A DNA stretch of 64,000 nt from Dioscorea cayenensis subsp. rotundata. Lineage: Eukaryota; Streptophyta; Magnoliopsida; Dioscoreales; Dioscoreaceae. Location of the stretch: positions 1,225,875-1,289,874 of the forward strand of contig NC_052496.1 of NCBI RefSeq assembly GCF_009730915.1. Direction: 5' to 3'. The translations under genes and the position numbers were made by a program. Of the stretch, positions 7,627 through 45,935 are shown in pieces; the first letter of the stretch is position 1; each line of letters opens with the position of its first letter. The notes under the pieces are model-generated. The model was given only the letters and a program-made list of their open reading frames with translations. It searched no databases and was not told the origin of the DNA.

Positions 7627-8230
7627 GAAGCACCTGCTATCATTCAATCTTACTATGACAAGTGCCTAGTTGGCTGTCTTGGTGGTGAAGGTGGTAAGCA
7701 CCTATCATGAAAAGATTATCAGTGATCAGATAGTTGGATCACTAATTTTGATTTTTTTTTTTAATCTTGGGCTTTGATCTTGTGTTTCATTGTTGGTTAT
7801 CTATAATATGTCTTACAGCCCATCCTTAAAAAGATGCAGTCAAAACAACAAGGTATTTTTTCTCTATTTCTTGTTGTTGTTCAACTTGCTAATAACTTTG
7901 TTGGATATTTCTTGAATGTGTGGTGTTATGCAGGAGACGAGCATGATGTTTTCTGGTTTTGGCAAGAGAAAGGCAAGCCATATGAATGCCCTGTTTGCTT
8001 TCAGTATTTCCTGGTAATGGAAATATCATGATTGATTTATACTGCATGTTTAATGTACTTTGATCTTGACCTTGCGAATGAACTTAGATAGTTTGTCATG
8101 AACCCTGTGGATTGATCTACCTTCAGGTTCACAAGATAGAAGCTGTGATGAATTTTATAACTTTTTGCAGCTTGAAGTAATTGGTGCAGGAGGATCTCTT
8201 GATGGGCATGATGATGATCATCATCATTGA
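7627..8230 (+). pseudogene. COX5B: Cytochrome c oxidase subunit 5b, C-terminal three-exon fragment
   Basis: COX5b is a zinc-binding nuclear-encoded subunit of mitochondrial complex IV. Three exons are recognisable (7627-7693, 7934-8013, 8171-8230) with conserved phases and splice borders. They encode 68 residues from 'EAPAIIQSYYDK' through 'DEHDVFWFWQEKGKPYECPVC' and 'LEVIGAGGSLDGH' to the usual D/H-rich end. The exons for the mitochondrial presequence and the first half of the mature protein are not visible in the preceding 2.2 kb, and no ATG opens exon 1. Several positions differ from the form I know: a Leu after the VGC motif where Pro is usual, Gly where Glu is usual after GGEG, and Phe after CPVC where Ser is usual. 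I read this as a 5'-truncated copy with its intron structure kept, so it arose from a DNA duplication or deletion and not by retroposition. Very distant upstream exons cannot be excluded. Confidence 0.8.
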
Positions 8231-9135
8231 GGAGAGAATGCATGGCAGTATGGGCTGCTTGAAATAAGAATTGGCCTGACAGCAGTCACAGTCAAACTGT
8301 GCAGTTTCAGGTGATTTCTGGATAAGCCTTTTGATCTGTTAACTGGTTCCTTGCCCATGAGTTGGAATAGTGCTTTCTATTAGTTCTATTTTTTTCACTT
8401 CCATGACCTAAATGGCTTCTATTTGAGCCAGGTATCTCTTGGGAACCAGTAAGCATCCTTTTTTTGGTCCATACACATCTATTTTATTGGATCAGCAGTG
8501 AATCCTCTTTTCAAAGCACCTAATTCAGGGTTCTTGAATTGCTTGCAAGTATAATATGCTAATTAATTTATAAACTACTATTCTTGCATATATTCAAATT
8601 ATTCAGGGATATTTTTTATGGTGAATTATTCCAGTAAGTTTCCTATATCAATAGTTTCACGTGCTGTTTTGAGTATTGTCTTACAATGAAAATGGCTAAT
8701 GGCTTAATAGCTTCCTGTGTCTAATTGAGTGGAAGAGGTTGTTAGAGCTTTCATGTTATGTTTTCCTGTCTTATATTATAGCTAGAAATGACCTCCTTTG
8801 TTTGATGGGGGTACATGAGGTTATATGTTGTTACTGTGAGCTAGACTTGAAAAAGGATTTGTTGGGGGAATGAGTATAATAAGGAAACAGATTCTGCTGG
8901 ATTATTTGTGTACACAAGCTGGGTTGACTGCATCTTCCTGTAGCATACTGCCTGTATTGATTTCAATTTTATTTGTTTTGCTCTTGGCATATCCAGATCA
9001 GATGGTTTGGGATTTTCGACCCAAAAATTTACTACTGTTCTGATAGCACTTCCAATTTTATGTTGGTTTGCCAAATTACTTGGAATTATTAAAAAACTTC
9101 CTTCTGTACAGACTGTACTACCCATTTGGGCGATG
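8231..9135. other. Spacer after the COX5B fragment
   Basis: AT-rich sequence. The longest open frame, on the minus strand at 8841-9164, has no recognisable family and runs into the inverted repeat that follows. No gene is supported. Confidence 0.5.
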
Positions 9136-9810: not shown

Positions 9811-9849
<39 letters not shown>

Positions 9850-10018: not shown

Positions 10019-11326
10019 ATGGAGGGCAGGAAAGGCAAGATTGTCGCCGGCGCCACCTTCAGCAGCCTCCTGATTCTGATCATCGTCCTCTGGCTATGCC
10101 TTGGCCTATCCAAGACCTTCTTCCTCCTGGCTGGTATAGCCGTGGCTTGCATCCTCTCTGTTTTAGTGTGGGTGCTGCTACAGCATGCGGCTCTGAACCG
10201 GCGGACGATGTCACTTGTCCGGCGCTCCACTCTCGAGGGCAATGAGCTCCGTCTTGAGTATAGCTTCCTCCGCAAGGTGGCCGGTCTTCCCACCAAATTC
10301 CGTTACAAAGACCTGGAGGTCGCCACCGACCACTTCCAGGCCCTGATCGGACGCGGCGCCTCTGCCTCTGTATTCAAAGGGATTCTGGACGATGGCACTC
10401 AGGTGGCCGTCAAACGGATAGAAGGAGCCGAGCATGGTGACCAGGAGTTCCGGTCCGAGGTGTCTGCTGTGGCGAGTGTACAGCACGTGAACCTGGTCCG
10501 ACTGCTCGGCTACTGCCTCAACCCTGGAGGGCCTCGGTTCCTGGTGTATGAGTACATCCACAACGGCTCTCTCGCCACTTGGATATTCCCTGGCGACAGT
10601 AGCAGCTGCTCTGGTGATCATCATCATCGTAAGTGCCTCCCGTGGGCGCTTAGGTACTGTGTGGCCGTGGATGTAGCCAAGGCGCTCGCTTACCTACACA
10701 ACGACTGTCGCTCCCGTGTGTTGCACCTGGACATCAAGCCGGAGAACATATTGCTGGACGAGGGCTTCCGGGCTCTGGTCTCCGACTTTGGGCTGTCGAA
10801 ACTTATGGGAAGGGATCAAAGCCGGATAGTGACCACCATTCGTGGAACCAGAGGCTACCTGGCCCCGGAGTGGTTCCTGGAGAATGGCATCTCTGAGAAG
10901 AGCGACATTTACAGCTACGGGATGGTGCTTCTGGAGATGGTGGGTGGTCGTCGGAATGTTATGCTGGTGGGTGATGGGCAGCCGTCGGAGAGGCAGTGGT
11001 CCTACTTCCCCAAGATTGTATCTGAGAAGGTAAGGGAGGGAAAGGCCATGCAAGTAGTGGACGAGAGACTGCTGCAGCCACAAGGAAGTGAAGATGTTGA
11101 AGTGGAGAAGGCGCAGGTGGAGACTCTGCTTCATGTGGCCTTGTGGTGCATCCAGGAGAACCCCAAGCTTCGTCCGAGTATGGCTCGCGTGGTGGACATG
11201 CTCGAAGGCCGTATCCCTGCTGATCTGCCTCCTGAGACGGAGATGATCATCATGGACATCTTGTCTATGGATGACCTACCCACGGCTGGGACCATGAATT
11301 ATTCTTCCATCCTATCTGGACGGTAG
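10019..11326 (+). CDS. Receptor-like protein kinase without a large ectodomain (At5g20050-like)
   Basis: An intronless gene encoding a 435-residue membrane-anchored Ser/Thr kinase. I chose the ATG at 10019 because the open frame extends upstream to about 9983 without an ATG, and 'MEGRKGKIVAG' resembles the start of the Arabidopsis homologue. Two hydrophobic stretches lie at residues 12-30 and 33-54. There is almost no extracellular part. The kinase domain spans about 105-412: glycine loop IGRGASASV (109-118), VAVK Lys132, Glu147, HLDIKPEN catalytic loop with Asp238 and Asn243, DFG 256-258 and APE 282-284. The residue before the catalytic Asp is Leu, so this is a non-RD kinase. The third glycine of the loop is Ala. 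The family is loosely annotated as probable receptor-like kinase; substrate and ligand are unknown. The coding sequence is GC-richer than its surroundings. It lies next to APT, as At5g20050 and At5g20060 do. Confidence 0.93.
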   Translation: MEGRKGKIVAGATFSSLLILIIVLWLCLGLSKTFFLLAGIAVACILSVLVWVLLQHAALNRRTMSLVRRSTLEGNELRLEYSFLRKVAGLPTKFRYKDLEVATDHFQALIGRGASASVFKGILDDGTQVAVKRIEGAEHGDQEFRSEVSAVASVQHVNLVRLLGYCLNPGGPRFLVYEYIHNGSLATWIFPGDSSSCSGDHHHRKCLPWALRYCVAVDVAKALAYLHNDCRSRVLHLDIKPENILLDEGFRALVSDFGLSKLMGRDQSRIVTTIRGTRGYLAPEWFLENGISEKSDIYSYGMVLLEMVGGRRNVMLVGDGQPSERQWSYFPKIVSEKVREGKAMQVVDERLLQPQGSEDVEVEKAQVETLLHVALWCIQENPKLRPSMARVVDMLEGRIPADLPPETEMIIMDILSMDDLPTAGTMNYSSILSGR

Positions 11327-13945: not shown

Positions 13946-16900
13946 ATGAGCTATGGTAGCAGCTCTCGTGCGCCTGCTTTCGGTGAACTTACTTCATTTA
14001 TAGTTTTCACATCATCTAGACCTAGTTAATTATTGTATTTTTCCTTTCTTTTTTTAAAAAAAGAAAAATTATGTTCAATATTACTTCTAATGTATGGAAG
14101 CAGGCAATAGGACTGGTCGGAGGCCTTTCGAGTTCGGAAGGACCCATGTCGTCAAGCCTAAGGGGAGGCACCAGGTCACCATCGTCTGGCTTCATGGCCT
14201 AGGTGATAATGGTGCCAGGTATTTACTCATTCACTCTTTAACCATTCTCCCCTATTGTTGTTACTTTAGGGCTAACTCCAACCTTTTCCAATATTCTGCT
14301 ATGCTCATCTTGAGGTAACTTTTAGGCTTCTCTGATGTTGATATGCTCTCCATGCAAATGACCTTTTTTTTTTTTTCCTCCAAAGTTTAAGCTTACTTTA
14401 TTATTTGCTCTTGGCTATCCAATATTTGGATTTCTTTGCGAGCAAATATTAGCACTCCTTTGTTTCAGCCAGTCCTTCCAATTCATACTTTTCATGAATC
14501 TTTAACAACTTTTGTTATTCATGGTGAAGTTTTGATATGGAGACACGTGCACAGTCACAATTAGAGGGCTGCTGAAGAATTAGTTTTAGGTCCTCTTATC
14601 TTTATATTGATTCCACGGCTTTATACCCCCTTTTCTATTGAAACTGATTTTGTTATTTTCCTTTCTCTGGGCATATTCCTAGTATTGCTGGACTTTTAAT
14701 GGTTAGCCTGTTAGATAGATTTTTTTCCTCTCTCATCCGAGTCCTAACCCTGTAGCTACTGTAAAATTTTTCCAACTTTTCTTCTGAAAGAAAGAAGAAA
14801 CAAAAATATTTGAGGAATGCCAAGCACATCTTTTAGTTCTGTAAAAATCATTTTCAATGATGTGGAAAGTCTGCGTACTTTGTGGCTTGCAAAATTCCAT
14901 CCTACTTGATTCGGGAAGAAAATGAAGAAGAATTATGAACCAGATAAAATTTAACTCCAGTATCTTTCAACTTTAATTTTCTATGAATGCTTCAGAGGTT
15001 GGTTATCTTGGATTAAAACAATTATAAATTTTAAAAGAAGGCATTTTGCCTTGGAGCTTTAGTCTGGAACCGCTGCTTTCACTATCTTGATGTTTAGTTA
15101 TCCACTATGCGTAGCATCTTATTGTTCTTTGCGACACTCCTTTTTCCTGTTATGGTGAAACTCTTAAAACAAAAATATAGATGCTTATCTATTATATATA
15201 TCCATTTGTCGTCTTCACACACGCATTGTTTAATATCTCTAGCATGAATGCTTATAATTTGCCTATTGTCAAACCCTGACAAACACTAGAATGACATATT
15301 TTTGCTCAAGATTTATTCATGCTTGCTGCATAAAAACCCGGTTTCAAGGGGAGATCCTTGTTTGATTGCATAAGAATGATTTAGTTCTCTCAATAGACAC
15401 AAAGTACTAATTCTGTCAATTGTCCTTTTCTCTAGTCTATGAACAGTTCATTACTCTGCTTAGTGATGTTTTGCCTTGATTATCTATAGTCAGAGGTGGA
15501 TGGTACTGCAACTCTATGTTCATCACTTATCCTTGTAGTTATCCTCTATCATATTTAATTTCATCTCCTCATACAGAAATTTTTTTCGGGGTATTTATAT
15601 GAGGAGTTCTTAGCTTCTGTGAACTAAAGTCACTTCATTGGAAGCAGATTCTACTGTTTGATGGTGCTCTCCTTTATTTTCATTTTTATTTTCTTTTTAT
15701 CTTTCCATTTTAAGTTGTGGTTGTTGAGGTGAAGGATATACAGAAGCAACACTATGCTCACACAAGAGAATTTCATATCATGCAGTTGGTTTTCTCTGTG
15801 GTTTGATAATTTTCCTTCTGTGCATCCCTTCTGCCTATCACTTTCAGGAACTAATTCTAATCCCGGACTCAAGAAGACAGGCTCTTCTTTTCATTCTTTC
15901 CTCAGTCTGAGTTTAAACCTAAATTTTCTCAGTAGCAGAATCACATGAGATTCACACTGGCCTATATGAAGATTTTGTTTATAGATCATTGTTTAATTGG
16001 GTTAAAATTGCTTACTTTTCTCTATAGGCTCAATTACACAAATAATTAATTTTTATATGAATCACTTGCATGATTCTGCGTAGTGACTCTGCCTTGATCA
16101 GTCTTCTATAGCTGAACTGGATGACACTGCAACATTATTTTTATCCCTATAATTGGACAGATCATTTGCCATATTTTGTTCACCCGACGGGACTTTTGCT
16201 TTGTAAGTTTATATGAGCTATTAACTTGCATAATATTATCTCACTTTGTTGGATGGAGCATCTACTGCTGTTGTTATTGTGTTTTTGGCACGTGTAACTT
16301 TTTTCCAAGTTCTTTTTTTAGTCGTTGTGGTTGTGGTTGTGGTTGTGATAGAAGAGCATATATGCATTAGCAGCTGTCTGAAGTCTGAGCACATAAGAGA
16401 ATCTCATATCATGCAACTGGCTTTCTCTGCCTGCTGTGCTTCAGCGCACGGGATCTAGTCATCACTTTCATGAACTTATTCTAGTTTACAGAGGCATGAA
16501 GAAAGGCTCTCTCTGTTTATTCATCACCCTTGACTCTGATAATATATCTAGATTATTGTAGTAGACTTTGCAGCCTTAATATTGCACTGTCTGTATGCGG
16601 CTTAAATACCGGAACTTTGTTTTATCTGAAGCATCACAAATTTTGTATTTCTTCTATTACTGTTATATCTTTCTTTGTAGTGACTTGGAAAACTTGTTCT
16701 ATGATCTTCTGATCAGTAAATGATATAAGTTAATTCCTTTGCATGCTTTTCTGACTACTTGTTTACACTTTGCAGCTGGTCACAGCTTTTGGAAACACTT
16801 CCTCTACCAAATGTAAGTATTGTGATTTTGGACTGTTGCCTTTTGTAATCATGAGTTGGAACATATTCTTTCTTTTCATTTTGTTATTGTGGGGAGCTAG

Positions 16901-18787
16901 GATAGTTTTGCATGTCACCTGCCCCCCTCCATTGGCCAGCCAACTGCATGCTTTAGTTAGACGCTAACCTACTGGGAGCTTATTGATTACAGATAAAATG
17001 GATATGTCCGACTGCACCAATCCGGCCTGTAGCTGCTTTTGGTGGATTCCCTTGCACTGCCTGTAAGTTTACTCATGGTTCAGGTTGTAAAAATCCTTGC
17101 ACTGAAAAGATGGCAATTCAGAAATTTCAAAAACATTTTCCATGGTGATTGCTTTCTGTGAAACTGATTTGTACCTCATTTGTTGGTTTGTTACCTAGGG
17201 TTTGATGTAGGGGAATTTTCAGAGGATGGTTCTGATGATGTTGAGGGAAATGGATGCTTCAGCTGCACATGTTGCAAACCTTTTGTCCACTGAGCCTGCT
17301 GATAGTATGCTTCATAAGTGCAATAATATTCTTGTCTGCTTACAGATTTTTGTATTTGTTCTTTTTTTAAGAACGCATTTCAAATTCAAACAGCCGAAAG
17401 CTATAATAATTCAATGATTAATTTTTTGGTGACTGCAGTTAAGCTTGGTGTTGGAGGCTTCAGCATGGGTGCTGCCACTGCTTTGTATTCTGCCACTTGC
17501 TGCATCTACGGAAAATATGGGAATGGCAGCCAGTTTCCAATTCATATTAGTGCAGTCATTGGCCTCAGTGGTTGGCTTCCATGTTCCAGGTTTACCTCTA
17601 CACTAATACGTTTTGATTTCTGCCATGTCTGTTTTCAAGTGCCTCTGTCAATTTTTTTTTTAATTGTTTTATTTATTAGTGTAAAATTTCATGCCTCGCT
17701 CTTAAATTTTTTAGGGGCTTGAAGACCAAGGTTGAAGTGTCTCCGGAAGCTACCAGGCGAGCTGCTGTGTTACCTGTTCTGCTTTGTCATGGAAGAGGTA
17801 TTAAATCATTTTTCATATTCCTCTTTTAGAGATTTTGCCACTGTTTGTTCTCTGACCTGGAGTTTCATAACGTTAGGTCAATAGATCCTTGAACATACGA
17901 GATTAGTAAATCTGAGTCATCTACCTCTATAGTGTGTGTTATTCCTAGTTCTTTCCCTGACCACCGCACCAAGTGTAGAGTCAGTACTATAATCAGATTT
18001 ATTTAAAGATCAGTGAATATTGGGCACAAGTATATATCTATCTTCTTTTAAAAAAAAGTATATATCTATCTTTTGGTAGTCTTTACTATATTTGTTTAAC
18101 AACTTTATGTTGTAGTTATGCAGGTAGAATTAAATGTTATGTTTAAGATTAGGTTTGCTTGAAAGTATTATGCTATGCTGTGCTACTAGACAGTTACACT
18201 TTGCTTAGATCTCAAAGGTACTAATTTAGTAATGCTTATGCAGGGGCTTATTATCTATAGATGTACGTCATGCCTTAATTCCCATCTGTTTACAGTAGAT
18301 GCCTATTGTTGAAAAATATTTTTCTCTCAAATTAATAGATCGATCTATCTACCTACCTATCTATGATGATAAATCTATGCCGATTAGCTCTAAACTTGAG
18401 TGTAAATGCATCTGTTGTTTTTCTGAAACAAACGTTACAGCTGATGATGTAGTCCCGTACAAACATGGGGAGAAATCTGCAGAGGTTTTAAGATCAGCTG
18501 GATACCGTAATCTGTCCTTTAGATCCTATAACGGGTATGTATATATGTATGTATGTATGCTTTGATTTATTTATTTATTTATATTTTTTTATATGTATAT
18601 TGTTGGAGTAAATTAAATGAGATTGCGGTCATGGACAACTGAGCTAGCTGATGTACGTACGTATGTCTAAACTATGTCTACACAAATTGAAATATGCAGG
18701 CTTGGGCATTACACACTTCCTGAAGAGATGGATGACGTCTGCAAGTGGCTGACTGCCAGACTTGGAATTGCTAGTTCCCGCAATTAA
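13946..18787 (+). CDS. Acyl-protein thioesterase / carboxylesterase family (APT), frameshifted in exon 5
   Basis: APT enzymes are cytosolic alpha/beta hydrolases that release palmitate from S-acylated proteins or hydrolyse lysophospholipids. Nine exons are read: 13946-13982, 14104-14218, 16776-16812, 16993-17062, 17199-17304, 17439-17589, 17715-17797, 18441-18534, 18700-18787. Family landmarks are the oxyanion region 'TIVWLHGLGDNG', nucleophile motif 'GGFSMGAA' (Ser codon near 17462), 'GWLPCSR', acid motif 'ADDVVPYKHG' and His in 'GLGHYT' (codon near 18707). Exons 1-4 and the start of exon 5 ('WFDVGEFSEDGSDDVEG') share one frame. The expected continuation ('DASAAHVANLLSTEPAD') lies one base out of frame, at GGGAAATGG near 17246-17252. 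The uncorrected frame stops at TGA 17291-17293, before the catalytic Ser. All other exons and splice sites look intact, so this is either a recent inactivating insertion or a sequence error. Intron 2 contains an old duplication. Confidence 0.88.
15460..16520. repeat. Diverged tandem duplication inside APT intron 2
   Basis: Two stretches about 620 bases apart share the same ordered words: 'gccttgat' (about 15472 and 16092), 'tggatg-tactgcaac' (15496 and 16119), 'tcatatcatgca-tgg' (15775 and 16404), 'atcactttca-gaact-attcta' (15837 and 16461) and 'ggctct' (15883 and 16505). The order and spacing are kept but the sequence is diverged, so this is an old segmental duplication of intron sequence. 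Its function is unknown. Confidence 0.6.
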
Positions 18788-19669: not shown

Positions 19670-22600
19670 TCAGCGATCTTGATTGGAGGTTGCATGAGTG
19701 AAGAGAAAGTTGTTATCGGAAGAGGAAAAGTTGCAAAGCAATAGTTTTCTACCCCAGAGATTTGAATTACAGCGGGAAAATTCTTCAACATGAGCAGCAG
19801 CTCTGGGAACAATGAAAGAAAACCAGGGACTAGTATTTCTAAAAATGGTATCACATCGACAAAGCCAGATAAACCAGGCGCTAGCAGCAATGAAGGCAAT
19901 AATGTGCATAGAATGGCTATAATCAAGCAGCCAGCAACCAGAAGAGAAGCCGTTAGTGAAAACAATTGATGTATTTAACTTGCTAGCAATTTGATCCCAA
20001 ATATTACGAGTTCTGTTGCAGTTATAAAGTAGATGATCAATTGTTTCTCTGTGAAGCCCACAGAAAACACATGGATTATCAGGGCCAAGCTTAATGTTGA
20101 ATAAAAAAGCAGATGTAGATAAACGACCTCTAAGGCAAAGCCAAATGAAGTGTTTGATTCTAGGAGCAACATGTATTCTCCAGACAGTATTCCAGCCAAC
20201 CCAAGAATCGGAAGCAACAGATTGATTATTCAAAGTATGATAAACTGCAGAAGCAAGTTTAGTGCTAGAGGCTTTAGGCATCCAAATCCAGTGGTTAACA
20301 TTGTGAGGGTCAAATGAAACGGAATTCATAATTGCTGTGATATCAAGATTACTAATAACAAGGTTAATATCATTACTAGGCCACTGAGCAATATCGAGGA
20401 TATCAGTGAAAGAAATTTGCTCAAAATCAACATTCATATTCAGGTATGTGGGTTTAAGACCAATAGGAATATCAAATAACCAAGGATCCCAAAGGAGGGA
20501 AGTTCTCGTAGGATTCACTGATTTGATTTTGCAAAATTTTCGAATACAGATAGCTGAATTGCATAAGCCTCTAAAAAACCAAGAGCATCTGGCAGGAGCA
20601 GAATCACGCCAGAAATTGATATCACCATACTTACTATGCAAAATATCGACCCATAAGCAATCGAAATTGTTAAGGTATTTGAAAATGTTTTTTGACATTA
20701 GAGAATGTTTGGCAAGAAGAAGATTCTTGATACCTAAGCCCCCCTCAGACTTACCTTCAGTAACAATGTTCCAACTCACATTATGGATGCCCTTTCCATT
20801 ACCATTCCTACACCAAATGAATTTTCTAACTGCTCTGGAAATATCGGACAGAATGGAATCTGGGATGGGATAAGCTATTAGAGTGTAAACAGGAATAGAA
20901 AGCAAGACTGAGTTGATGAGGACCTCTTTAGCTGCAGGGGTAAGATGAAATTTTGACCATTTGGAAATCAAATTGTTTACCTTATCAACCATAGGTTGGA
21001 AAGAAAGGGAAGCCAGTCTTTTAGGAGAAATAAGAACCCCGAGATATTTGAAAGGAAAGGAGGACTGCTTGAGGTTCAGGATGGTACAAATCCTTTTAAC
21101 AATATGTTTGTTTAGCCAAGTAGGGAAAAAAATTTGAGATTTATTAAAATTAGGATGCTGGCCAGAGAAAGTACCATAAAAATTAAGACAAGCTTGTATA
21201 TTTTTTGCAACTCTATGAGAAGCAGAAGTAATTAATATCAAGTCATCAGCAAACATCAAATGGTTGAAATTGTGATGAAGATTAATATTAAAACCAGGGA
21301 TTAAATTTTGGAGAAGACCAAAGTTGAGCATGGTAGTGAGAGTTTGAGAAACAATGATAAACAGGTAAGAAGAGATAGGGTCACCTTGGCGAACACCTCT
21401 AAATGAGGGGAACCAAGGGGTAGGTTTACCATTGACTAAGAGAGAGAAATTGCAAGTTTGAAGACAAGTTTTGATCCAGGAAATCCAGAGAGGAGGAAAA
21501 TTCATGGCAGCAAGAATGGTAAGAATTGCACTCCAACTAAGGGTATCATAAGCCTTTTCGATATCCAGTTTAATGATCATCCTAGGGGGGCTATGGGTAT
21601 CAAATTCAATTGAGTGGGTAACTTCTTGCACAGTAATAATGTTATCCAAAGCATTGCGGCCAGCCACAAAACCAACTTGTTCCCTACCAATAATATGAGG
21701 TATTACCCTCTTAAGTCTATTGGCAAGAAGTTTAGATAGAACTTTGTAGCAAACGTTGCAAAGAGAAATAGGACGAAAATCTGAAACCAGTTTGGGATTA
21801 TCCTTCTTAGGGATGAGGGCGACAAAAGTTTTACCCCAGGAAACAGGGATATGCGAAGTATTAGTAAAATGCAGAATGGCTTCGAAAAGATGATTACCGA
21901 CAATAGGCCAAAAGTTTTTGTAAAACTCAACGTTGAAACCGTCGGGACCAGGGGACTTACCTGGAGGAAGATCCAAAAGAGCTTGATAGACTTCCTCAAT
22001 AGTTACATCACTGATGAGAGAAGCGCTATCAGAGTCAGAAATCTTAGGAATGTCAGGAGGGAGAGAAACTTGCCCATTGGGGGGACAGCGATCTGAACAT
22101 CCCCAAAGATGCTTATAAAAATTGATGAAAGCTTGCTCAATTCCAGTAGCATCACTGAAGACGTTGCCGTTAGAATCCTCAATTTGAGCAATATAGTTAT
22201 TGTGAGAGCGAGTACGGTAGATAGCATGGAAGAAACGAGTATTCCTGTCACCATCTGAAACCCAATTAAGACGAGCGCGCTGGGCCCATTTAATACTGTT
22301 CTGACGTTGTAAAGCGGAAAGTTTAGCATAAAGATTTTTAAGTTCATAAAAAGAATTGGGTCCAGAGTCAGCAAGTTCAAGAGAGCTAATATCATTTTCA
22401 GTTTTAGAAATAGCAGCATCTAAGTTGTTAAAACCAGCACTTTTCCAGCGATTGATATTAAAACGGGTACGGGACAAGAAATGAGAGAAAGCATGCATAG
22501 GATTGCCACGAGGAGTAAAATTCCAAGCGTCACGGATACAAGAGTGGCAATCAAGATATTCCATCCAAAAGTTCTCAAATTTGAAAAAAATGCTCCGGGA

Positions 22601-23324
22601 AACAATGGAGACACTAACTTTCAGAAAAAGCGGCGAATGATCAAAGAAGGATCGATTGAGGTGAGAAAGATTGTAAGATTTAAACATATCATTCCACTCA
22701 AGATTAACCAGGCACCTATCAAGCCTGGCCCATCTACGAGCCGAACCTTGTTGGTTATTACACCAGGTAAAAGGAGAGCCATCGTACTTGAGATCCATAA
22801 GATTATTACAGTCGATAAAAATCGTTGAAAAATCTAGCTTTACGACTGTAATAAAAGAAAGAGCCGCCCTTATGCTCAGTTCTGGAAAGAATAGAGTTGA
22901 AATCTCCCAGAATAAGCCAAGGGATCTCAAGTTTAGTGAGTTTGGAAAGCTCTTGCCAAATAAATCTCTGGTTAATACAACGAGAAGAGTTATAGACCAC
23001 AGAAATAATTAAGTTTTTAGAAAACGAAGAAGAGATCACTAAATGTAAAACACGGCGAGAAATAGAGATAGGCGTAACTCGACCGAGAACCGAGTTCCAA
23101 AGGATAAAGATACCGCCTGAGAAACCTTCTGCAAGAACCGTGGCCCATTCCCAAAGTTTAGGGATTTTTTTGCAAAGACGATCAACTCGATCCGAATTGG
23201 CACGGGTTTCAACTAAGCATACCAGAACCGGATTATGCTTTTTGATGATTCTAAGGAGACGGGAAGAGGTATCCCGATCGGAGATGCCCCTGCAATTCCA
23301 ACAAATGATTTTAATGGCGTTCAT
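19670..23324 (-). pseudogene. LINE A ORF2: endonuclease-reverse transcriptase (one frameshift)
   Basis: ORF2 performs target-primed reverse transcription. The ATG at 23324 opens an APE-type endonuclease ('IICWNCRGISDRD', 'LVCLVETRA', 'LILGDFNSIL'). A frameshift near 22810-22840 moves to the 1086-residue frame 22930-19670. That frame carries the rest of the endonuclease ('FTWCNNQQ', 'RLDRCLVN', 'FFDHSPL'). It also carries the reverse transcriptase: 'GKSPGPDGF', 'KLDIEKAYDTLSW', and the active site FADD near 21240-21255, about residue 560 of this frame. Next comes the zf-RVT zinc-binding region ('HFIWLCLRGRLSTS', 'CVFCG', 'ETIDHLLYNC', about residues 880-960). Core catalytic residues of both enzymes appear present. 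Only the frameshift and the decayed RNase H show loss. Confidence 0.85.
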
Positions 23325-23479
23325 AAAAACAAAATTATGAAGGAAAAAGAAAGAAACTCCCTTAAGAAAAGGGTGAAGAGAATAGGCTGCAACATCAAGG
23401 ACCGGAACCGCCTGGTTCCAATCTCCCTTTCTTCTGCGATGGATCATCTTCATAAACACTTTTACGAATAAGGGTCTCC

Positions 23480-23923
23480 CGTCTGACTCTAGCTTGGTAT
23501 TGAACTAACGTCATAGAGTCATCTGGTTCCTCTTCATCTTCTCATTTCTTCGTCTTCGTCTTCGTCTTCTTCGTCTTCAGTACCCTCATCCTCTTCACTG
23601 TCTTCATCCATTTCACTGGAATCAAGGGCAGAGGAGACTTGCGAAACAATGAAGTCGTGCTGTAACCCGGATGAGGGGAGACATAGATTGCCAACTGGAA
23701 CAGAAGCTTTCAAGATGGGAGGGGGGGAGATGGATCTGAGTTTGGAGCTAGAAGGGTTTGTCTGTAAAGCGGTATCTCGAGAAGGGCGAAAGGGCATGAT
23801 TTGATTGGACGAAGTGGGTGGTGAGGTTTCTCGAGAAGGAGCGTGAGCAGGTTTGTTGGCCTCGAGTGGGGTCGTCGGAGTAGTGACTTGGGGATTAAGC
23901 AAAGGTGAAGAGCTATGATCCAA
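23480..23923 (-). pseudogene. LINE A ORF1 C-terminal tail, frameshifted
   Basis: The tail overlaps the main ORF1 frame by 10 bases and continues it: a Pro/Ser-rich linker, then a strongly acidic D/E run near 23540-23620. A second frameshift near 23540 is needed to reach the conserved end motif DDSMTLVQYQ. The same motif ends ORF1 in LINE B and LINE C, which is why I treat these pieces as one broken reading frame. Confidence 0.65.
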
Positions 23924-25770: not shown

Positions 25771-26539
25771 TTAGTAGTCAGGATCTGCATGGGTTGCATC
25801 CTTGTTGTTCTTATCCTCCCCTGTACATGTTGCCATGCCCAGAGTACTCTTTACCGCATCCGCTGCACCCTGTGCAGCGCTCTTCACCTTCTCTCCAGTC
25901 TGCCAATTGCATGTGCCAAACAAATATATCTATTAACGATGGAACTGGATATACTCGCGCGCATGAAGTTACAATTTGCAATCAGATCAGTTATTGTTGC
26001 TGTTTGTGCTTGTGCTTGTGCTTGTGATCAGAGAGAAATAATTAAACAGATAAATATATTATAATTAACAACGACTTACTTGCTGGAGAAGGCTACCAGT
26101 CTTCTCTTTGCCTGCTTGCGTGGTTTCTTTAGCAGACTGGGCGGTCTCAGAGGCCTTTTGTTTCGCTGCCTCAGTTTTGTCTCCCAGAAAACTACCTGTC
26201 TGGTCCTTGCCCTCCTGAGTGCTCTCCTTGTCAGCCTGTGTGGTCTCAGAAGCCTTCTCCTTGGCCTGATGTGCCTTCTCCTTAGTCGCATCCACCGCTT
26301 CCCTGCTTTTCCCCATCACCTGCTCTGTCTTCTCCTGAAGACACAACACAATACAATAACAATAACAATACACTTATGCACCGCACAACAACATTCACTT
26401 TAGTAATGCATTATGCATGCATGCGTACGTTGTAAGTATTAAAATGTTCAAGATGGAGATTTTATTTGGCTTAATTAATCACCTCAGCATGGCCTCTGGT
26501 TTCACCAGCCTTGTAGCTAGCTTGTTCCTGGGATGCCAT
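25771..26539 (-). CDS. Late embryogenesis abundant protein, group 3 (LEA_4 family)
   Basis: A hydrophilic desiccation protectant, intrinsically disordered in water and helical when dry. It probably stabilises membranes and proteins in seeds or under drought. Minus-strand exons are 26539-26483, 26334-26080 and 25899-25771, in phase 0, encoding 146 residues. It begins 'MASQEQASYKAGETRGHAEE', the usual group-3 opening. Lys/Ala/Glu/Thr-rich 11-residue repeats follow ('AVDATKEKAHQAKEKASETT', 'DKTEAAKQKASETAQSAKET'). The C-terminus has 'KVKSAAQGAADAVKSTLGM' and ends DATHADPDY. There is no signal peptide or membrane segment, so it is likely cytosolic. The upstream region carries a TATA box and a CE3-like element, consistent with abscisic acid control. 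Confidence 0.93.
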
Positions 26540-30544: not shown

Positions 30545-31056
30545 ATGAACAGGTATCCAGGAGACTGGGATTGCAGGGCATGCCAGCACCTCAACTTCAG
30601 CCGCAGGGATACGTGCCAAAGGTGCGGAGAAGCAAGGATTGGTGGAGGAGGCGGGAAAGTTAATGGGAGCAAGTCCTCGGACGCCAAGCCCGGGGACTGG
30701 TACTGCATGTGCGGCACTCACAACTTCGCCAGCCGTCCCAACTGCTTCACTTGTGGCACTTACAAGACCGGCTGCGTTGTGGCTGCCGGCGCCTTTGATG
30801 GTTATGGCTATACTGGTGTGCCCACTGGCTGGAAGTCTGGTGATTGGATTTGCACCATGTACTACTATACGTTATCCTCTTTCTTCTGTCTCTTTAATTA
30901 TTCCCCCATTTATGATTGATGAATACGTTAGCACGGTAGCATAAATTAACAACTAGTCTTAATTTGATATATAGGCCTGGGTGCAATGAGCACAACTATG
31001 CGAGCAGGAAAGAATGCTTTCGATGCAACACGCCAAGGGACTACTATGTATGGTAA
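30545..31056 (+). CDS. RanBP2-type zinc-finger protein, three fingers
   Basis: A small protein made almost entirely of RanBP2/NZF zinc fingers, a fold that binds single-stranded RNA or ubiquitin. Two exons, 30545-30858 and 30975-31056, join in frame (AT|G) to give 131 residues. The fingers are GDWDCRACQHLNF...CQRCG (about 6-28), GDWYCMCGTHNFASRPNCFTCG (about 51-72) and GDWICTMPGCNEHNYASRKE...CFRCN, the last split by the intron. The protein ends DYYVW. Finger 2 has Cys-x-Cys spacing, as in related plant proteins. A Gly-rich linker separates fingers 1 and 2. There is no signal peptide. It is likely nuclear or cytosolic and RNA-binding, which is inference from the family (At3g15680-like). Confidence 0.95.
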
Positions 31057-33887: not shown

Positions 33888-36800
33888 TTAAAAGATAAAA
33901 TGACGCCGAGCACACAAATCTTCAAGCCAATGCGGCCGGTCTAAGCCTTGGAAAAACAGAGAGAGCTGATTGCAATTTCTTCGGAAAGAAGCCAGCGCGT
34001 CCGCGATTTCATTGTCCTCCCTAGGAATAGTCTCAATGAAAAGGTGAGGGAAGAGACCCAGGTTCCTTTTCAACAACTGGTAATCCTCTTTGATATGCCA
34101 AGCGGTACAAACGTTGAAGTTCTTAAGGAGTTGAGCAACACCAACACAATCACAAAGAAGACTAGTAGGGAGCCATCCGTTCGAGATACAAAGTTGCAAA
34201 GCGAGGTTGATCGCAGGGAATTCAGCCATGATGGGGGAAGATGCAACCGCAGCTTTGGAACCTGCAATCAGAATGTGGTTCATAATAGAAATGATGATGA
34301 AACCTAATCCCGCAGACCTAGATTCCATACACCACGATGCATTAGTGAAAATTTTAATGAATTTGTTTAAGTGATAAGTTCTGGAAAACTCCCTGAAGGG
34401 GAATGTAGAGCGATTGCAGTGCATATTCCACGCATTGGGAACAATCGAACTGAAGTTGATAGGTTGATCACGGAAAATTAGTTTACATCTGGATTTCTAG
34501 ATGATCCAGGCAACAACAACAATAAGAGCCTTAACACGCAGGTCAATATCTCTCCCATAAACATTCTTTAAAAGCCAGCTGCCAGAGTTGAGAGTAAGAA
34601 TATCATTTTGATTCCAGCCAATCCTAGCGAACACATCATGCCAATAGCAACTGATTTTGGAACATTTCCAAATCAAATGCTCAGCAGTTTCATCAGCAAG
34701 ACCACACAAAGGGCAAGTAATTCTGGGGCCAATGTTGAGCTAATATAAGTAATCCCTCGTGGAAAGTCTCCCATGCGCAAGCTTCCAAAGAAAGACCTTG
34801 ACACGAGGAAGGGTAGGGAGTTTCCAAATAATCGACCAGCCCATCCAAGAGGTTTTAGTAATATTAGAACTTGAAGCATGATCATAAACTGAAGAGGCAA
34901 TAGAAGCTTAGCAAGAATGAAATCTCCAGACCCAAAGATTAGAACCATCCTCAATGATATTTAAATTCTCAATACTATTCCAATTAATATTGTTACCAAA
35001 CAAGCTTCTGATGGAGGCAGGACAAAACCCATTAGACTCTAAGAGATTAGGAAACATTAAATCCTCTCGATTATCAATAGACATGTTTAAAAAAGTAGGT
35101 TTTTTGGCAATAGGAAGGTCGAAAATACAAGGATCATGCCAAAGATCAATGGTCTCAGGGTTACAGGAAAGAAGCTTTATGTTAGGTCTAAGAAAGTTTG
35201 CAGAGTTGCAAACAGATTTGTAAAACCACGAGGAGTTAGAAACATGCTTCGGGTTCCAAAGATGCCAACCCCTGTACATAGATTTGAAAATATCGACCCA
35301 AATTTTGTTATCAGAATTGAGAAGGGAGAAAACATTTTTGGCCATGAGCGAGTGCTTAACATATCTCAGATTCCGAATTCCCAAGCCCCCCTCAGACTTT
35401 TTAAGTGTAGTAACTGCCCACCCAACTGAATGAAAGCCATGATTGCTGCCAGTTCTACCCCAAAGGAAATTTCCTAGCAAGTTTGGAAATATTGTCCAGG
35501 ACGGAATTGGAGAGGTTCATAACCGAAAGGATGTAATTAGGTATCGCAAAAATTGTGCTATTAATAAGGATGGTTTTGCCCGCAGTAGTAAGAGAAGAGT
35601 GGTTCCAAGAATTCAAAGTATTTTTAACTCTGTTAGGAATGTGGGTGAGCTGATTAGAGAGCAGTCTCCAAGGGGAGGTGGGCACACCAAGATAATTGAA
35701 AGGGAAGCTCCCTAATTTAATCCCAAGAATTCGAGAAATCGAGTTGGCAAGCTTATTGTTACATCAGGAATGGACAAAGATGGCTGATTTAAGAGGATTA
35801 GGCTTTTGACCAGAGATCTCCTGGTAAATTTTGAGGCAAAGAAGGCAATTTCGGGCTGAATTCCGAGAGGCATTAGTAACCAAAATGAGATCGTCAACAA
35901 ACATAAGAAGGTTAAAATTTCTAGGAAGATTAGAGTTGAAACCCTGAACCAACCCCATAGAGAGAGCTTTATTAAGAATGGCCGAGAGGTTCTGGGAGAC
36001 TAACAGGAAAAGCAGGGGGGAGAGAGGATCCCCCTGCCGAGCACCGCTATTGCTATTAAACCAAGAAGTGTGCCGACCATTAATAATAAAGGAGAAAAAA
36101 GTAGAGGAAAGACAAGCCTGGACCCAAGAAATCCACTTATCAGGAAAATGCATTCTCTGGAGGGTAACAATAATGGCTGGCCATTCAACAGTATCAAAGG
36201 CCTTTTCAATATCGATTTTACAAATCATCCTAGGGGCGACATGGGAATCGATTTCTAAGCTATGCAAGATTTCTTGGGCTGCGATAATGTTATCAATAGC
36301 GCCCCGCCCATGAATGAAACCACACTGCTCAGGTAAATCAATTTGTAACAGACATTGCAAAGAGAGATTGGTCTAAAATCTTTAACAGAAATAGGGTGGC
36401 TGATTTTGGGAATTAACACAACATAGGTTTTGCCCCAAGAGTGAGGAAGGGAACCATTGTTAAAAAAACAAGAGATAGCATTGAAGAGGTGAGTCCCAAG
36501 TAAATTTCAGTAAAAAAGATAGAATTCCACATTCATGCCTTCAGGACCAGGACGTTTGCCCCGGGACATAGACTTGAGATTACGAAAAACTTCTCCCATG
36601 GAAATGGATCTAATTAAGGACTCATGATCTATGTCCGAAAGGGTAGGTAAATCATCTGGTAAGGCATGCCTATAGAATTCAAGAGACTTAGAAGAAGAGG
36701 AAGACCAGAGATCTTTATAGTAATGAAGAAAACAGCTATCAATATTAGATTGCTTAGTAAAGATATTATCCGAGAGGTCTTTGATCGCATTGATCCTGTT

Positions 36801-37926
36801 TTTATGCCTACGGACTTTGACCGTGTTGTGAAAATATCTGGTATTAGAGTCACCCAAGTTCATCCATTGCAATTTGGCTCTTTGCCCCCAATATATGTTT
36901 TGTTGTCTCAACAGAGCGTTTTGCCTATTGTAGAGGGCATGTAACCAGACACCATTCCAGTTGTCAAACAGATTCATGTCTTCCTCCTCAATTTTCTTTA
37001 TCTCGGCCTGAATGTTGTTAAGTTCATCATCAATGTAGCCCAGGCCAGAACGCTTCCACCTGAGGATATTTAATTTGGTGTTAGCAATACAACTTATAAA
37101 GGATGGCAAGTTAGAAGTAGAAGGATCAGAATTCCAAGCTTTGATCACACTGTTGTGGCAACCCTCATAGTTAAGCCAGTAATTGTCGAATCTGAAAACA
37201 TTGTTGGAAACATTAGTAGAGTTACGGGCATTTAAATAAAGAAGGGAATGATCCGAGTTTGTGCGAGGGAGATGGTGAATAGTGAAGTTTTTGAAATTGA
37301 TAATCCACTTGGTGCTGGCAAGAAAGCGGTCAAGTCTGGCCCAACGGCGAGCAAGACCCTGTTGGCCATTACACCAAGTAAACTGAGGTCCAGTGAAACC
37401 CAAATCATGCAGATTATTATCCAAAATAAAATTAGAAAACAACTTAGCTTTACTGGCATAGTTCCTAAACTCTCCCCCTTATGCTCCTCAGAATTGGTGA
37501 TGGCATTGAAATCACCATTAAGAAGCCAGGGGAAGTCAAGCAGAGAAATTTTATTAAGAGAGCGCCAAAGACGCTTATGTTCAGAGATCACCAGGGAATT
37601 ATGGATAGTGGAGAGGATCCAGGTTTCATTATTGGTCGAGATCACCAGATGAAGGGCCGCACGAGAAACTGCAACCTGAGTAACGGTGCCCACCGAAGTG
37701 TTCCAAAGAACCAAGATACCTCCGGAGAGACTGGAAGAGTGAATAGCAGCCCATTCCCAATTCCTTTCCACCGAGAGCAATAACGTTATATTCTAAGAGG
37801 GTCAGTTTTGGTTTCAACTAGGCAGATGAAGTTGGGGTGCTTTTTCTCCATCAAATCTTTAATTCTATTCATCGTATTAAGGTTGGAGAGGCCTCTGCAA
37901 TTCCAAGAGAAAATTTTTAAATCCAT
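33888..37926 (-). pseudogene. LINE B ORF2: endonuclease, reverse transcriptase, zf-RVT, RNase H (broken)
   Basis: The start at 37926 ('MDLKIFSWNCRGLSNL') opens the endonuclease, which hits a stop after 'CLVETKTDPLRI' near 37795. It resumes in another frame (37780-37232: 'WLLNGDFNAI'; 37442-36507: 'FTWCNGQQ', 'RLDRFLAS', 'NSDHSLLYL', then the 'RGKRPGPEGMNVEF' edge of the reverse transcriptase). The reverse transcriptase core is 36360-35764 ('KIDIEKAFDTVEW', active site FVDD near 35888-35902). Its C-terminal part is 35480-34908 and the zf-RVT region is 34709-34497 ('CGLADETAEHLIWKC'). RNase H is 34424-33888 ('IFTNASW', 'AEFPAINLAL', 'IPREDNEIADALA'). The first RNase H catalytic Asp is Asn, and the second position of the reverse transcriptase box is Val where LINE A and LINE C have Ala. 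Confidence 0.78.
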
Positions 37927-38031
37927 GAAAAGCATTGTGAAGAAAATAATAATAGAGAAGAACTAGTAAATCATCTATTGATCGGGGAGCTTCTCCCTTT
38001 TTTTGGTTTCATGCTTCTTTTGGATGGAGCT

Positions 38032-38922
38032 CTACGAGCAATGGTCTGCAGATTTAGCATCCTTCTGGTAAAGAGAAAGAGTCATGTCGTCGTCAACCTC
38101 CTGTGATGAGCCAGGATCATCAGAGGAAAAGTCTTCCATTGAGCGGTCACTATGGGGAAATTCAGCCAAAACTTGCACCATCTTTTCAACTACCATTAGA
38201 TGACTATCTTCAGGCAGTAACTGTGAAGAGGAAGTTTGAAGGTTCACTGAAGTCAAAAGCATAGGTTGGGGAAGGTTAGGGTCTTTTGAAAAACTCAGAG
38301 AGGGTGGCGGGGTCTCAAAGGAGGGAGGCGGATCCAACGGGTGATTTTTCTGATTTCCCAGGTGGAGAGGAGCATTGGGAGCCGGTGAAGCCCTGTTGGA
38401 AGTGACAGCAGGAATGACCAAAGCGGAAGGCGCGAAGGTCGCCTTGGAACTAGGGTCAATGGCGCTCCTTACAACGGATAGCCCAAAAGGCGCTACCTCG
38501 GAACCAGAAACACCACCATCACCTTTCAAATTGTTCTCAACGGGAGGAAGAGCCTCGAGATTATCAACAGAAGGATTTGGGTTAAACGGAAAATAACAAG
38601 AAGCCCCCTCCAAATTTAATTGCTTGCCACGTGTCTCCTGCAAATGAGAGGAATCAACCACGTGTTGGCCTGAAGCCCATGTAGTAGGCCACCTGTCAAG
38701 CCCTCCATCGTCGTCTCCGGAGTGGCCCCTAGGAATAGGGTTTCTCGTTCCTCCCCTGTCATCACCCCGGCCCCTCGAGGCTAGCTGCCGACGTCGTGGC
38801 TTTAACCAGGGGCCAAATTCCTCCGTCTCCGAATCCGGCAAGGACACCGGCTCCACAACAAAGCCATCCTGTATTTTGTCTGCCTCATTGACATTTAGGG
38901 AATAACTGAAAGGACTGATCAA
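38032..38922 (-). pseudogene. LINE B ORF1, C-terminal half only
   Basis: This fragment begins just before the family motif 'FGPWLKPRRRQLASRGRG', so the N-terminal DUF4283 and CCHC domains are lost. A long Pro/Ser-rich linker follows. It ends with an acidic segment and DDDMTLSLYQ, the same end motif as in LINE A and LINE C. The methionine at its start is internal, so the apparent start is not a real one. Confidence 0.7.
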
Positions 38923-39175
38923 TATTATGTATGCACCTTCATATTGGGAAGAGCCCCTTACTCGGATTCAAAGTGCTTTCTCATGAAATTAATACAATAA
39001 CAATTTTCATTTGACTTTTGTGAGTTTGCTTTTTTTTTTATTATTTTTTAATTATTTTTTTATTTTTTAGCTATTGAAGAAATCTCTTTGTGGTGGAGAT
39101 AGGTTATAGTTTGCCAAATTATTACTACTATAAAATTTTGCGTCTCTCTCGGTTATTATATTTATTTTCTACTTG

Positions 39176-41440: not shown

Positions 41441-44400
41441 ATGGCTTCTTGTAAGTTGATATTCCATACCTAGTTACCTACCAAACCCCCGTTTATTCTC
41501 AGGAAAAGTTAAGTTGCATATAAACTGTTTATCATGATACCCAATGAAAGCCAATTCGTATTCTCCTTCTTCTTCTTCTTCTTCTTCTTCTTCTTCATGT
41601 CTTTTTCAATTATATTTTTTTGGTGTTGATTTACTCTTCCACTGTGTTTTTTCCCATTGCATTTATTAATGTGACCACCAGGAATAGGATGATGCGTGTT
41701 GTATTATTAGCCGAGCCGGTCGGCATTGCATATTTATGCTTTCGCTAGACAGGTATTATGGTATACTTACTTGAATTAATGGCCACATATGAATGATAGG
41801 GGTATTTCCTAGTTGGAAAATTCGACCCAGAATTTCTTGTTTTTTCTCATAAAATCCTCAGTGTTATGTTTTGAGGTATAAATTTTGCATGTGTTAACAA
41901 TATTGGTTGATGAAGTATCCATCCATCCATCCATCCATCCACGAGCATCAAATGTTATTCTGTCATTAGGAATGTGGCACCTACATAGACATGCCTTTTT
42001 TTTTAAATTCTAAATACTAGAAGTACTAATATACAGGCCATTTGAATGTCTCCAGTCCAAACATGCACACCAGACATATCTCACTCTGTCAGTTTCGTGA
42101 ATGCTCTCCTGACCATCTCCTTTGTCACTGGCTTGCTTGTGTCTTAAGCAAGATTGGACATTCTTTGCTGACCTTGCAGTATCTAATTGTTTCATGAGTC
42201 ACAGAAACATCCTACTGTTTCTATAACACTTCACAACCAATGAATGGTTTCACATCATAAATCCTAATAATCCTTCAGTACGGGTTAACACCAGACATAA
42301 TTATTGGAGCATTTTAGAGAGTTTGCTGCCAGTCAACAAGTTATTCAAAATTATCTTCTCCTACATCCCTGAAGTAATCTTCTAATTTTGTTATTATCTC
42401 ATGCGATGCAGGGAGAAATATATTTGTCAATACCATTGCTTCCACATATTTTTGTTTAAACTTTAAAGAATATTATGTGTTTTACGTGCTCATTTGTTTA
42501 TCTATTTGTAGAAAATCATATTAGTGAGCCATTGGTAACTAATTCCTGTATGGAACAAGAAATTGGTGCTTTTTTTGGCTCTGCTCACCCTGGGTGGAAG
42601 GACCAGCCTTTCCTGCTTTTGATCATGACTTGCATCCTGTTTTATTTGTTATATCTTCTTCTTCTTCTTAGGAATATGGTATAGCCATTTTTGTAGAGGA
42701 AGGAAAAAAAGTGTTTGACGCTATTAAGATACTCCTTGATGCTTATTTGGAGTGCATCACATGTTCTATGTTCTTTGAGCTTAAAATCTCTGCAATAACC
42801 TTGAAATGCTTTCCAAAGTAGCACTTGTTTTACTATCTGCACGACCTCTATTTCATTCAAAATGTAGAATCCATTCTTTAAAGTGAAGAATTTTACAAAT
42901 TATCGTTCCCTGTTCTTTGAACTCATTTCTGATGTCATACTTCCAGGTAGCCTAGGAGCTTCTACAAATACCATATTACCCAACCTACTGTCTGGCTTCA
43001 AGAAGATTAAATGCTCAAGACTGGATATAACTTTTAAGGTCAATTCTGCTGGAGTGCAAACCTCATTTGGGCTGAGAGGAATTCAATTAAGCCCTGACCA
43101 AGTCCATGGCACAAAGTTTAGTTGGAAGTCTTTGCGGCCTGCATATCCAATTGTTGTAAACTGTGGCATATCTTCTGCAAGTATGTTCTTTTGTTAGTAC
43201 ATATTACTCTTTGAGGGTTTAAGGATTACTGAAATACGAATTGCTTGATATTTCACTGCAGTTTTTTTGTGTATTCTGTTTTTAATAACTTTTATTTATG
43301 TGTTCTATTTTCTTGTTATAGGTGCTTATCATGTATTGCATAATATTAACTTGTTTGTCAAGATTTTTTTGCGAAGCACTTTTTGTCTTGTTACTTTTCT
43401 TAATGCTGTTCTGTTATTTAGAAGTTTGGATGTATTACCTACCAAGTCATGGTTAACAGTGCTCTTGACATTTATGGCTTGCACATCTCCACATTCTAAA
43501 AAAACTCAACAAAGGAAGGACAAAGTGTTAGATATTCACCGGAAGATTTTATTTCATTTTATTATTGCTGCTCTGTATAGACATTTTTCTTAAATAGAGT
43601 AATATGTCTATTCTCATAACTTGGACTTATATTTATTTATATCTGGACTGGCAGAGAATGGTATAGAAGTTGGCGCTTTGGAAGAAGAGAAATCTACCAG
43701 GGATCAGCTTATTCCTTTTTCTCCAGAAGTTTGTAGCCTTTTGAATCTTTGTTGTTAGCTCCAACATAAGCATGGAATTTCAGTATTTTTTTTACCATAT
43801 TCGTGGCTGTTTGTTGTGTGGTTTTGTATTAGCTTGCATTTTACATATCTAAATTTATGCTTGAATTTGCTTTTGTTGAAAGGATAAAAGTGCATGTTGA
43901 CTGCATCATGGTTTTAACATCTTCAACTATATTGTTTCAATGTGATGAGCCTCAAATCACATGCACAACTTTTGCATGTTGCTCAATTGGTTATACTAAC
44001 TTGTTTTTATTTGCACTAGCATTGTTGCAAGTTCAATTTTTTGTTGATGGTAATGACTGTGGTAATTATTTATGGCTTATTTGAGGTTATTATTGTTAAA
44101 GAACCAACTACAATAAGGTTTTCATTCTTCATGTTGTGTTAACCTCAAAAATATGCTTAAAAGAAATTGTGCAGCCAAAGGTGTTTTAGTGTTGAAATTT
44201 AAGTCCATTTTTCACTATTTGTACTTTGACAATTTGACAATGGTGATAGCTTTTCTAGGATAAAATGTGTGTGTGTGTTTTTTTTTGTTGCTTTTTTTCT
44301 TTTGGCAATATTTGTGTGTACATGCATGCTTTTCTCATTTTCTCCTGGTCTATGTTGTATAAAGTGATTAGTGCCTCTTGTTTTTTTCAGGTGGAGTCTT

Positions 44401-45935
44401 TACTCAATGTAATTTGTGATACAACTTCTATTGCAGAGTTTGGACTGAATGTAAGTGTTGTGAAACTTCAGATACTGTGAAAGTCTATTTTTAGTTTTGA
44501 GGGTTATGAACATTGAATTGTGATCCTTTGTTCTCGCATTGATTGTTATGCATAGCTTTCTGGCTTTCGACTCTATGTAAAGAGGGATATAAATGACAAA
44601 ATGTTAAACCTGGCCGCTTCAAGTCCTCCAATCCAAATAAGTTCTTCAAACGAATTGTTGGATCAAAATGGCTTTGTATCAACAACTTCCTTGACTCTTT
44701 CTAAACCAAAACCTTCTCCAGGAAGTTTCCAACAAATACTTGACAGTTCCCATGATGAAGGATTGATGATTCTTCAATCCCCAAAGGTATGTTTTTTTTT
44801 CCCTACAAAGCATATCCATACTTTTTTACTTGATCTTTTTTTGACACTATTTCATCTTTGAAGGTTGGATTCTTTAGGAGATCCAGAACCATAAAAGGAA
44901 AAAAGGCGCCTCCATCATGTAAAGAGGTAAACGCCTTGCTTATAATTATCTTATACTGAAGCAAATGGGTTTGTTTTAGAGTTTGCAAATAAGATTTTAT
45001 TATTATTTTTATGATGATGATGATGGTGATGATGTTTTATGAAATGTAATAGCATTTTTTGAGCTGGTTATGTCATCACATATTCATTGTTACAAAATAA
45101 TTCTTTTGATTTCTTAAGTAACGCCGGAAACTTGGAATATACATGAATTACCAGAGGCACCATTTGTTTAGCCAATTATTATCTCAGACTAACAACATCC
45201 TGTTCTATTATATTGCTTTATATTGTTTTTTCTTTCAATTAGTTGTGTCTAGACTTTTAATGGGCTACTTAACTATGTCCTTGCAGTCAGTAATGTGTTG
45301 TCAGTTGCTGAAACTGGAACCCTGACACATCTTTTATTTATCTCATCAAGCCTGAAATAACTCTTGTATCATCTTCTGCGCTAAAAAATATTCTTTCTTT
45401 GAGTTTGATGTGTGCTGGTGCAATACACACCTGTGCATGCGTGCGCACACGCACACACATGCACAACAGCCACCCAAAAAAATTAAAAGGATAAAAAGGG
45501 GCTTGATCGCATTTCTCATCATTCAACCATATGATTTTCTTACAGAAGCAACAGGTCAAAGAAGGTCAAGTAATTTGTTATGTTGAGCAGCTTGGTGGGG
45601 AGATTCCAATTGAGGTGCTAAGTGGTTTTGGAATTTCTGATGTTCTTAAAAATGGAGACTGTTCTCTCATTTCCCATATTTATACATGTTTATCCATTTC
45701 AGTCAGATGTTTCAGGAGAGGTCATCAAGATATTTAGACGAGATGGTGGTAAGTAGAGAAGACTTTTGGTGGTCTTTCTGTTGTAGCATCCATATTTATC
45801 GTGGCCTTCTGTATTAGGACCATTACTATTCACATTTTGATTCATATGTGCATGATTTTTGCAGAACCAGTAGGATATGGTGATGCTCTCATAGCGATTC
45901 TCCCTTCCTTTCCAGGGATTAAGAAGCTACAGTAG
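41441..45935 (+). CDS. BADC: Biotin/lipoyl attachment domain-containing protein (BADC)
   Basis: BADC proteins resemble the biotin carboxyl carrier subunit but lack the biotinylated Lys. They occupy BCCP positions in plastid heteromeric acetyl-CoA carboxylase and restrain fatty-acid synthesis. Nine exons are read: 41441-41450, 42947-43180, 43655-43728, 44391-44450, 44556-44786, 44864-44926, 45546-45614, 45703-45748, 45865-45935, giving 285 residues. Exon 1 codes only MAS plus one base. After a 1.5-kb intron the frame reads 'MASCSLGA', matching the Arabidopsis BADC3 start as I recall it. Residues to about 80 are a Ser-rich plastid transit region. 'VESLLNVICDTTSIAEFGLN' and 'LSGFRLYVKRD' form the BCCP-like N-domain. 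A Ser/Pro linker leads to the biotinyl-like domain ('GFFRRSRTIKGKKAPPSCKE', 'VKEGQVICYVEQLGGEIPIE', 'DVSGEVIKIFRRDGEPVGYG', end 'FPGIKKLQ'). Where BCCP has EAMKM, this has EQLGG. Confidence 0.95.

Follow-up and report, generated by a model that had tools for sequence, protein, structure and literature searches.

A row of six genes in the yam Dioscorea cayenensis subsp. rotundata, probably the best preserved among four paralogous versions of an ancient angiosperm neighbourhood

We analysed a stretch of 64,000 nucleotides from Dioscorea cayenensis subsp. rotundata, hereafter referred to as the window (C26:1225875-1289874; the assembly comprises 2249 contigs totalling 584,211,761 bases), in which genes for COX5B, a receptor-like kinase, an acyl-protein thioesterase (APT), a LEA protein, a RanBP2-type zinc finger protein and BADC follow one another. 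With considerable confidence, we regard this window as the best preserved of four paralogues that go back to one old neighbourhood of angiosperm genes, an uneroded relic that would have come down through two whole-genome duplications and fractionation. An earlier note on this DNA had seen in it an unduplicated, pre-duplication gene order. This view is contradicted by our finding that the genome itself contains three further paralogous versions of the neighbourhood. The six genes named in that note are indeed all present, and in the order stated; two of them are damaged, COX5B being represented by its last three exons only and APT carrying an extra base. In the literature searched, no paper on the block as such was found by title.

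The window is plant nuclear DNA. Read from left to right, it contains an Agenet-domain gene (minus strand), TAF7, COX5B, the kinase, APT, a LINE (minus strand), LEA (minus strand) and RanBP2, followed by a decayed LINE-like stretch (minus strand), BADC, a racemase gene (minus strand) and another LINE. At a threshold of E 0.001, Pfam names five of the six block proteins (COX5B, Pkinase, Abhydrolase_2, Zn_ribbon_RanBP and Biotin_lipoyl) and eight of the nine window proteins submitted, the exception being LEA. TAF7 (TFIID subunit 7; exons seen at 3663..4911, plus strand; Pfam TAFII55_N, E 1.5e-33) may possess one more exon, out to about 5366. The Agenet-domain gene (3..1356, minus strand; Pfam Agenet, E 2.6e-18) runs on beyond the left edge of the window and is a possible counterpart of At5g20030, which we take to encode an Agenet-type protein; in the left flank (L035 599-3526), there is a gene for a cytochrome P450 (p450 in Pfam, E 4.6e-57) that appears CYP734/735-like by eye. 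In the literature, At5g20030 goes by the name of 'RNA binding protein' (PMC3362767).

Versions of the block were detected at four places in the yam assembly, on C26 (the window), C5, C17 and C4, and the order of the surviving members agrees in all of them. The C5 version consists of a full-length COX5B, a decayed APT exon and RanBP2, that on C17 of the kinase, APT and an inverted RanBP2, and that on C4 of the kinase, APT and a diverged RanBP2 in the orientation seen in the window. The comparison with C5, C17 and C4 covers short stretches and not long segments: among our queries, only COX5B and the APT exon matched within 50 kb of C5 (8.612-8.662 Mb), and the C5 RanBP2 gene lies outside this stretch, at 8.7146 Mb. 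Among the matches listed, BADC (7/7), racemase (3/3) and TAF7 (4/4) were found exclusively at the window locus on C26, and LEA gave two matches on C26 and a weak one on C19. COX5B yielded at least eight matches (on C26, C5, C12 and C15, the latter two being small copied fragments), APT at least 24 (on C26, C17 and C4, with a partial copy on C1041) and the RanBP2 exons at least eight (two apiece on C26, C5, C17 and C4); such genome-wide counts are lower bounds, because only the best candidates were scored. Shuffled queries produced no match (0/240) in seven of the loci.

With respect to the relationships among the four copies, the sequences make C5 and C17 clearly the closest pair, because their RanBP2 proteins are 90% identical over 126 residues; the C26 protein shares 66-68% with either of them. 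The C4 RanBP2 protein is only 35-40% identical to any other copy, and its first finger was not recognisable in the stretch read. The kinase is the one member that would pair C26 with C4 (71% identity over 414 residues), RanBP2 leaving this pairing unsettled. The dS values amount to 1.04-1.16 for the APT pairs and to 1.08 for COX5B (62 codons), and are saturated or above 1 for RanBP2 and the kinase; they permit no dating. The greater yam has been described as having undergone duplications named delta (median KS 0.869) and tau (median KS 1.21), which give 4:4 patterns, and most of its chromosome 5 is said to derive from the paralogues of chromosomes 17 and 10 (PMC9010478). The situation reported here resembles these delta/tau segments in its two presumed duplications, its 4:4 pattern and its unequal gene loss, and the link between chromosomes 5 and 17 resembles the closeness of C5 and C17, with the reservation that the contigs need not be numbered as the chromosomes are. 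The block itself is not mentioned in the portion of that paper available to us (PMC9010478).

The COX5B remnant of the window (7627..8230, plus strand; exons 7627-7693, 7934-8013 and 8171-8230) comprises the last three exons with 68 residues, its splice borders and its stop codon. It covers positions 70-124 of the 129 in the Pfam COX5B profile, and hence merely the C-terminal part; a complete coding sequence with presequence is not what the window holds. A full-length COX5B gene is present on C5, from position 2036 of extract L017. When its exons were compared with the window, exon 1 gave a best E of 0.088 on the opposite strand at 9.6-9.7 kb (among the matches listed) and exons 2-3 a best E of 0.72 elsewhere in the window, both unconvincing, and in a DNA comparison of the window with C5 the part carrying exons 1-3 found no match. 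Over 57 residues aligned with chain 7jro_e, which we take to be the mung bean COX5b chain, 44 are identical in the C5 protein and 40 in that of the window; the C5 protein agrees with 7jro at six sites where the window protein differs, and the reverse is true at two sites.

The 3' part of the window COX5B gene, with introns and 3' flank (7707-8502), has been copied to C12 (L018 5283-6172; 88%), and in part to C15 (L022 4213-6625). In both copies the match ends at one point, window position 8502, and the two have roughly 2 kb more in common, a pattern suggestive of a mobile element that picked up a piece of the COX5B gene. That the window gene is itself the product of such a mobile fragment is disfavoured. 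Because the window has exon 4 upstream as well, and has COX5B at its collinear position, its gene is more likely, if not conclusively, the donor or a relative. Between COX5B and the kinase lies a near-perfect palindrome (9136-9328) with 94-base arms that are 84% complementary and separated by a 5-base gap; it possibly represents a small hairpin transposon.

The receptor-like kinase gene (10019..11326, plus strand; Pfam Pkinase, E 4.3e-42) is intronless and has an open frame of 435 amino acids. Its paralogues adjoin APT on C17 and C4 as well, at distances of 2.6 kb and 5.8 kb, respectively. For the kinase on C17, identity amounts to 45-47% over approximately 200 residues, and stops that could reflect either an intron or damage break up its reading. 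The nine-exon APT gene (13946..18787, plus strand; Pfam Abhydrolase_2, E 1e-39) encodes a protein whose closest solved chain is 6avy (APT2; E 1.6e-131). All eight introns are of the GT-AG type; a GC-AG intron was considered and ruled out, as the donor reads GT. In exon 5 of the window copy there is a single surplus base, located at about 17248-17250, so that the frame is not open over all APT exons. This base is absent from the APT genes of C17, C1041 and C4 (on C4 as judged from in-frame translation). With dN/dS values of about 0.13 against C17 and 0.10 against C4, the codons, the extra base aside, look constrained, and the extra base would therefore be either recent or an assembly error. On C5, the decayed first exon, located directly downstream of COX5B, is the sole APT exon still recognisable. 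The middle of the window gene, introns included (15602-18350), has been copied to the small contig C1041 (L021 4435-9192) with 81-90% identity, and stops are present in the copy.

The LEA group-3-like gene (25771..26539, minus strand; three exons, 146 amino acids) was called by eye and its splice sites were checked; its protein has no Pfam family match, LEA_4 included, at E 0.001. The RanBP2-type zinc finger gene (30545..31056, plus strand) has two exons (Zn_ribbon_RanBP, E 2.1e-16). In its second finger (window 30690-30760), the spacing is C-x1-C in place of the usual one, and usual zinc binding may consequently have been lost. We rejected this spacing as damage to the window gene; it is an older feature, because it is common to the copies on C5 and C17 (L043, L044). 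Eight exons of BADC were seen (42946..45935, plus strand; Biotin_lipoyl, E 3.6e-08), and its first exon was not located in the window. The protein possesses a biotin carboxyl carrier-like domain, and AMKL, the biotinylation motif (PMC11926652), is absent from the place of biotinylation. The frames of the kinase, LEA and RanBP2 genes are open, as are those of the BADC exons seen.

The block had been thought to be stretched to about 40 kb by retrotransposons. One LINE inside it is backed by Pfam, an L1-like element between APT and LEA (19673..25136, minus strand; RVT_1, zf-RVT, DUF4283 and zf-CCHC_4), yet only part of the 38 kb is explained in this way. A decayed LINE-like stretch (33888..38967, minus strand) was recognised by eye from its reading frames; three pieces of it were tested and gave no Pfam match. 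A further LINE is indicated by an RVT_1 match at 58.7-59.8 kb of the window, and a retroviral-type polymerase piece at 54453-54911 (SH3_retrovirus, E 3.3e-21) is a Copia-like relic.

Our comparison with Arabidopsis sets locus numbers printed in papers, which by convention ascend along the chromosome, against the gene order of the window and is not a direct sequence alignment. The sources place COX5b-1, -2 and -3 at At3g15640, At1g80230 and At1g52710 (PMC5877523), an APT pair at At1g52700/At3g15650 (PMC1560137), GRXS15 at At3g15660 (PMC8260144), a LEA pair termed homeologous at At1g52690/At3g15670 (PMC2292704), RanBP2 at At3g15680 (PMC7154859), and BADC2 and BADC3 at At1g52670 and At3g15690 (PMC11926652). 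The kinase corresponds to At5g20050 (PMC11615123, PMC5389163), and its neighbour At5g20060 is an APT (PMC5736716). From the number convention follow an order of COX5b, APT, GRXS15, LEA, RanBP2 and BADC3 on chromosome 3, and of BADC2, LEA, APT and COX5b on chromosome 1. The window order of COX5B, APT, LEA, RanBP2 and BADC agrees with these rows: COX5b, APT, LEA and BADC stand in matching order on both, RanBP2 is found on chromosome 3, and a receptor-like kinase adjoins APT at At5g20050-At5g20060 just as it does in the window. The Arabidopsis order given in the earlier note, an error in which had been named as grounds for giving up the block, is thus upheld by the printed locus numbers for the kinase-APT pair as it stood, and for the rows At3g15640-690 and At1g52670-At1g52700 with the amendments that GRXS15 lies inside the former and that COX5b at At1g52710 completes the latter. 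The two rows differ from the window in having no kinase beside APT, as far as the available parts of the papers go. On chromosome 3, GRXS15 is positioned between APT and LEA, whereas the window lacks CGFS, presumably the motif marking GRXS15, in every reading frame; a motif split by an intron would escape such a search. For the pairs of Arabidopsis locus numbers from the block that were looked up together, no paper was found in the literature searched. In rice, Os01g42650 is COX5B (PMC6311934) and Os01g0612500 a phospholipase/carboxylesterase (PMC7911625); the two numbering systems differ, and the positions could not be related to each other.

Beyond BADC, the window contains an Asp/Glu racemase gene (46856..48009, minus strand; Asp_Glu_race, E 5.5e-22) whose last exon is repeated. 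Two 110-base copies of this exon, 94% alike and 151 bases apart, stand in tandem (46813-47120), and there is perhaps a third. The right flank beyond the window carries a GH28 polygalacturonase gene and a peptide deformylase gene; the deformylase finds its best chains in 1zxz (E 8.9e-60), which we take to be Arabidopsis PDF1A, and PDF1A 4je6 (E 5.9e-58), and matches PDF1B 3m6o only at E 1.1e-11. Racemase and PDF1A point to a probable fourth Arabidopsis segment related to the window; the polygalacturonase weighs little as evidence because polygalacturonases form a large family. We take the regions At1g15380-At1g15410 and At1g80160-At1g80230 to be duplicates of each other, At1g15390 to be PDF1A and At1g80170 to be a polygalacturonase. 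The likeness of these regions to our segment consists of the racemase and COX5b-2 (At1g80230) on the Arabidopsis side, and of racemase, COX5B, PDF1A and polygalacturonase on that of the yam. In the literature, the Arabidopsis racemase is At1g15410 (PMC6175328), and the numbers At1g15390 and At1g80170 occur, as numbers only, in a peptide deformylase paper and in polygalacturonase papers, respectively.

The data lend themselves to a history in which two whole-genome duplications would have generated four copies of the neighbourhood, each of which would afterwards have lost genes independently and one by one, the process of fractionation; in Arabidopsis, the neighbourhood would have been parcelled out over that plant's own duplicated segments. 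Such a history would not require the row to function as a unit. A window segment that has never been duplicated since the angiosperm ancestor might be read from the occurrence of BADC, racemase and TAF7 only here among the matches listed, and is almost certainly not what we are looking at, as the collinear copies of the kinase, APT, RanBP2 and COX5B on other contigs contradict it. We also consider it highly improbable that the similar neighbourhoods stem from chance or from later small segmental duplications instead of whole-genome duplication. Copied fragments do exist, in the form of the COX5B 3' parts on C12 and C15 and of the APT part on C1041, but even with their introns these are 81-90% alike, as against dS values of about 1 or more among the four copies. 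Under random placement of the copies found, the chance that the six families all fall no more than 45 kb from the only BADC gene is 8.5e-22, and that of three extra RanBP2 copies near APT is 3.7e-10, both calculated post hoc.

Selection might alternatively have kept the genes together, for instance as an expression domain for seed maturation or for energy and fatty-acid metabolism. The places of all six members have been kept in one copy over a very long time, and a published table lists the LEA pair of Arabidopsis as expressed in seeds (PMC2292704). A selected unit, however, would not be expected to drop its members singly in each copy, and the losses seen in the four copies are separate and unlike one another: C5 has a full-length COX5B where C26 has a truncated one, only a relic of APT is left on C5, and, among the matches listed, BADC is confined to C26. 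Moreover, the six gene families belong, to our knowledge, to no one pathway. Because the losses differ between the copies and COX5B is truncated in the window, we favour an uneroded relic and judge maintenance by selection to be very unlikely. A slim chance is given to a larger neighbourhood, reaching from Agenet/TAF7 to racemase/PDF1A and spread over four Arabidopsis regions, of which one copy would have stayed near-complete through weak selection on the co-location of seed and energy genes.

Collectively, the relic that we favour would provide a compact and countable case of fractionation, in which a single ancestral row is represented four times in one genome and by several segments in Arabidopsis. 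The process can be followed in single genes: one copy has COX5B at full length and another a truncated form, and APT has been reduced to one recognisable exon. The case is a good example, but one of an already known type. Since a window of unduplicated appearance can turn out to be the best preserved among several copies, gene order alone is no proof of a pre-duplication state.
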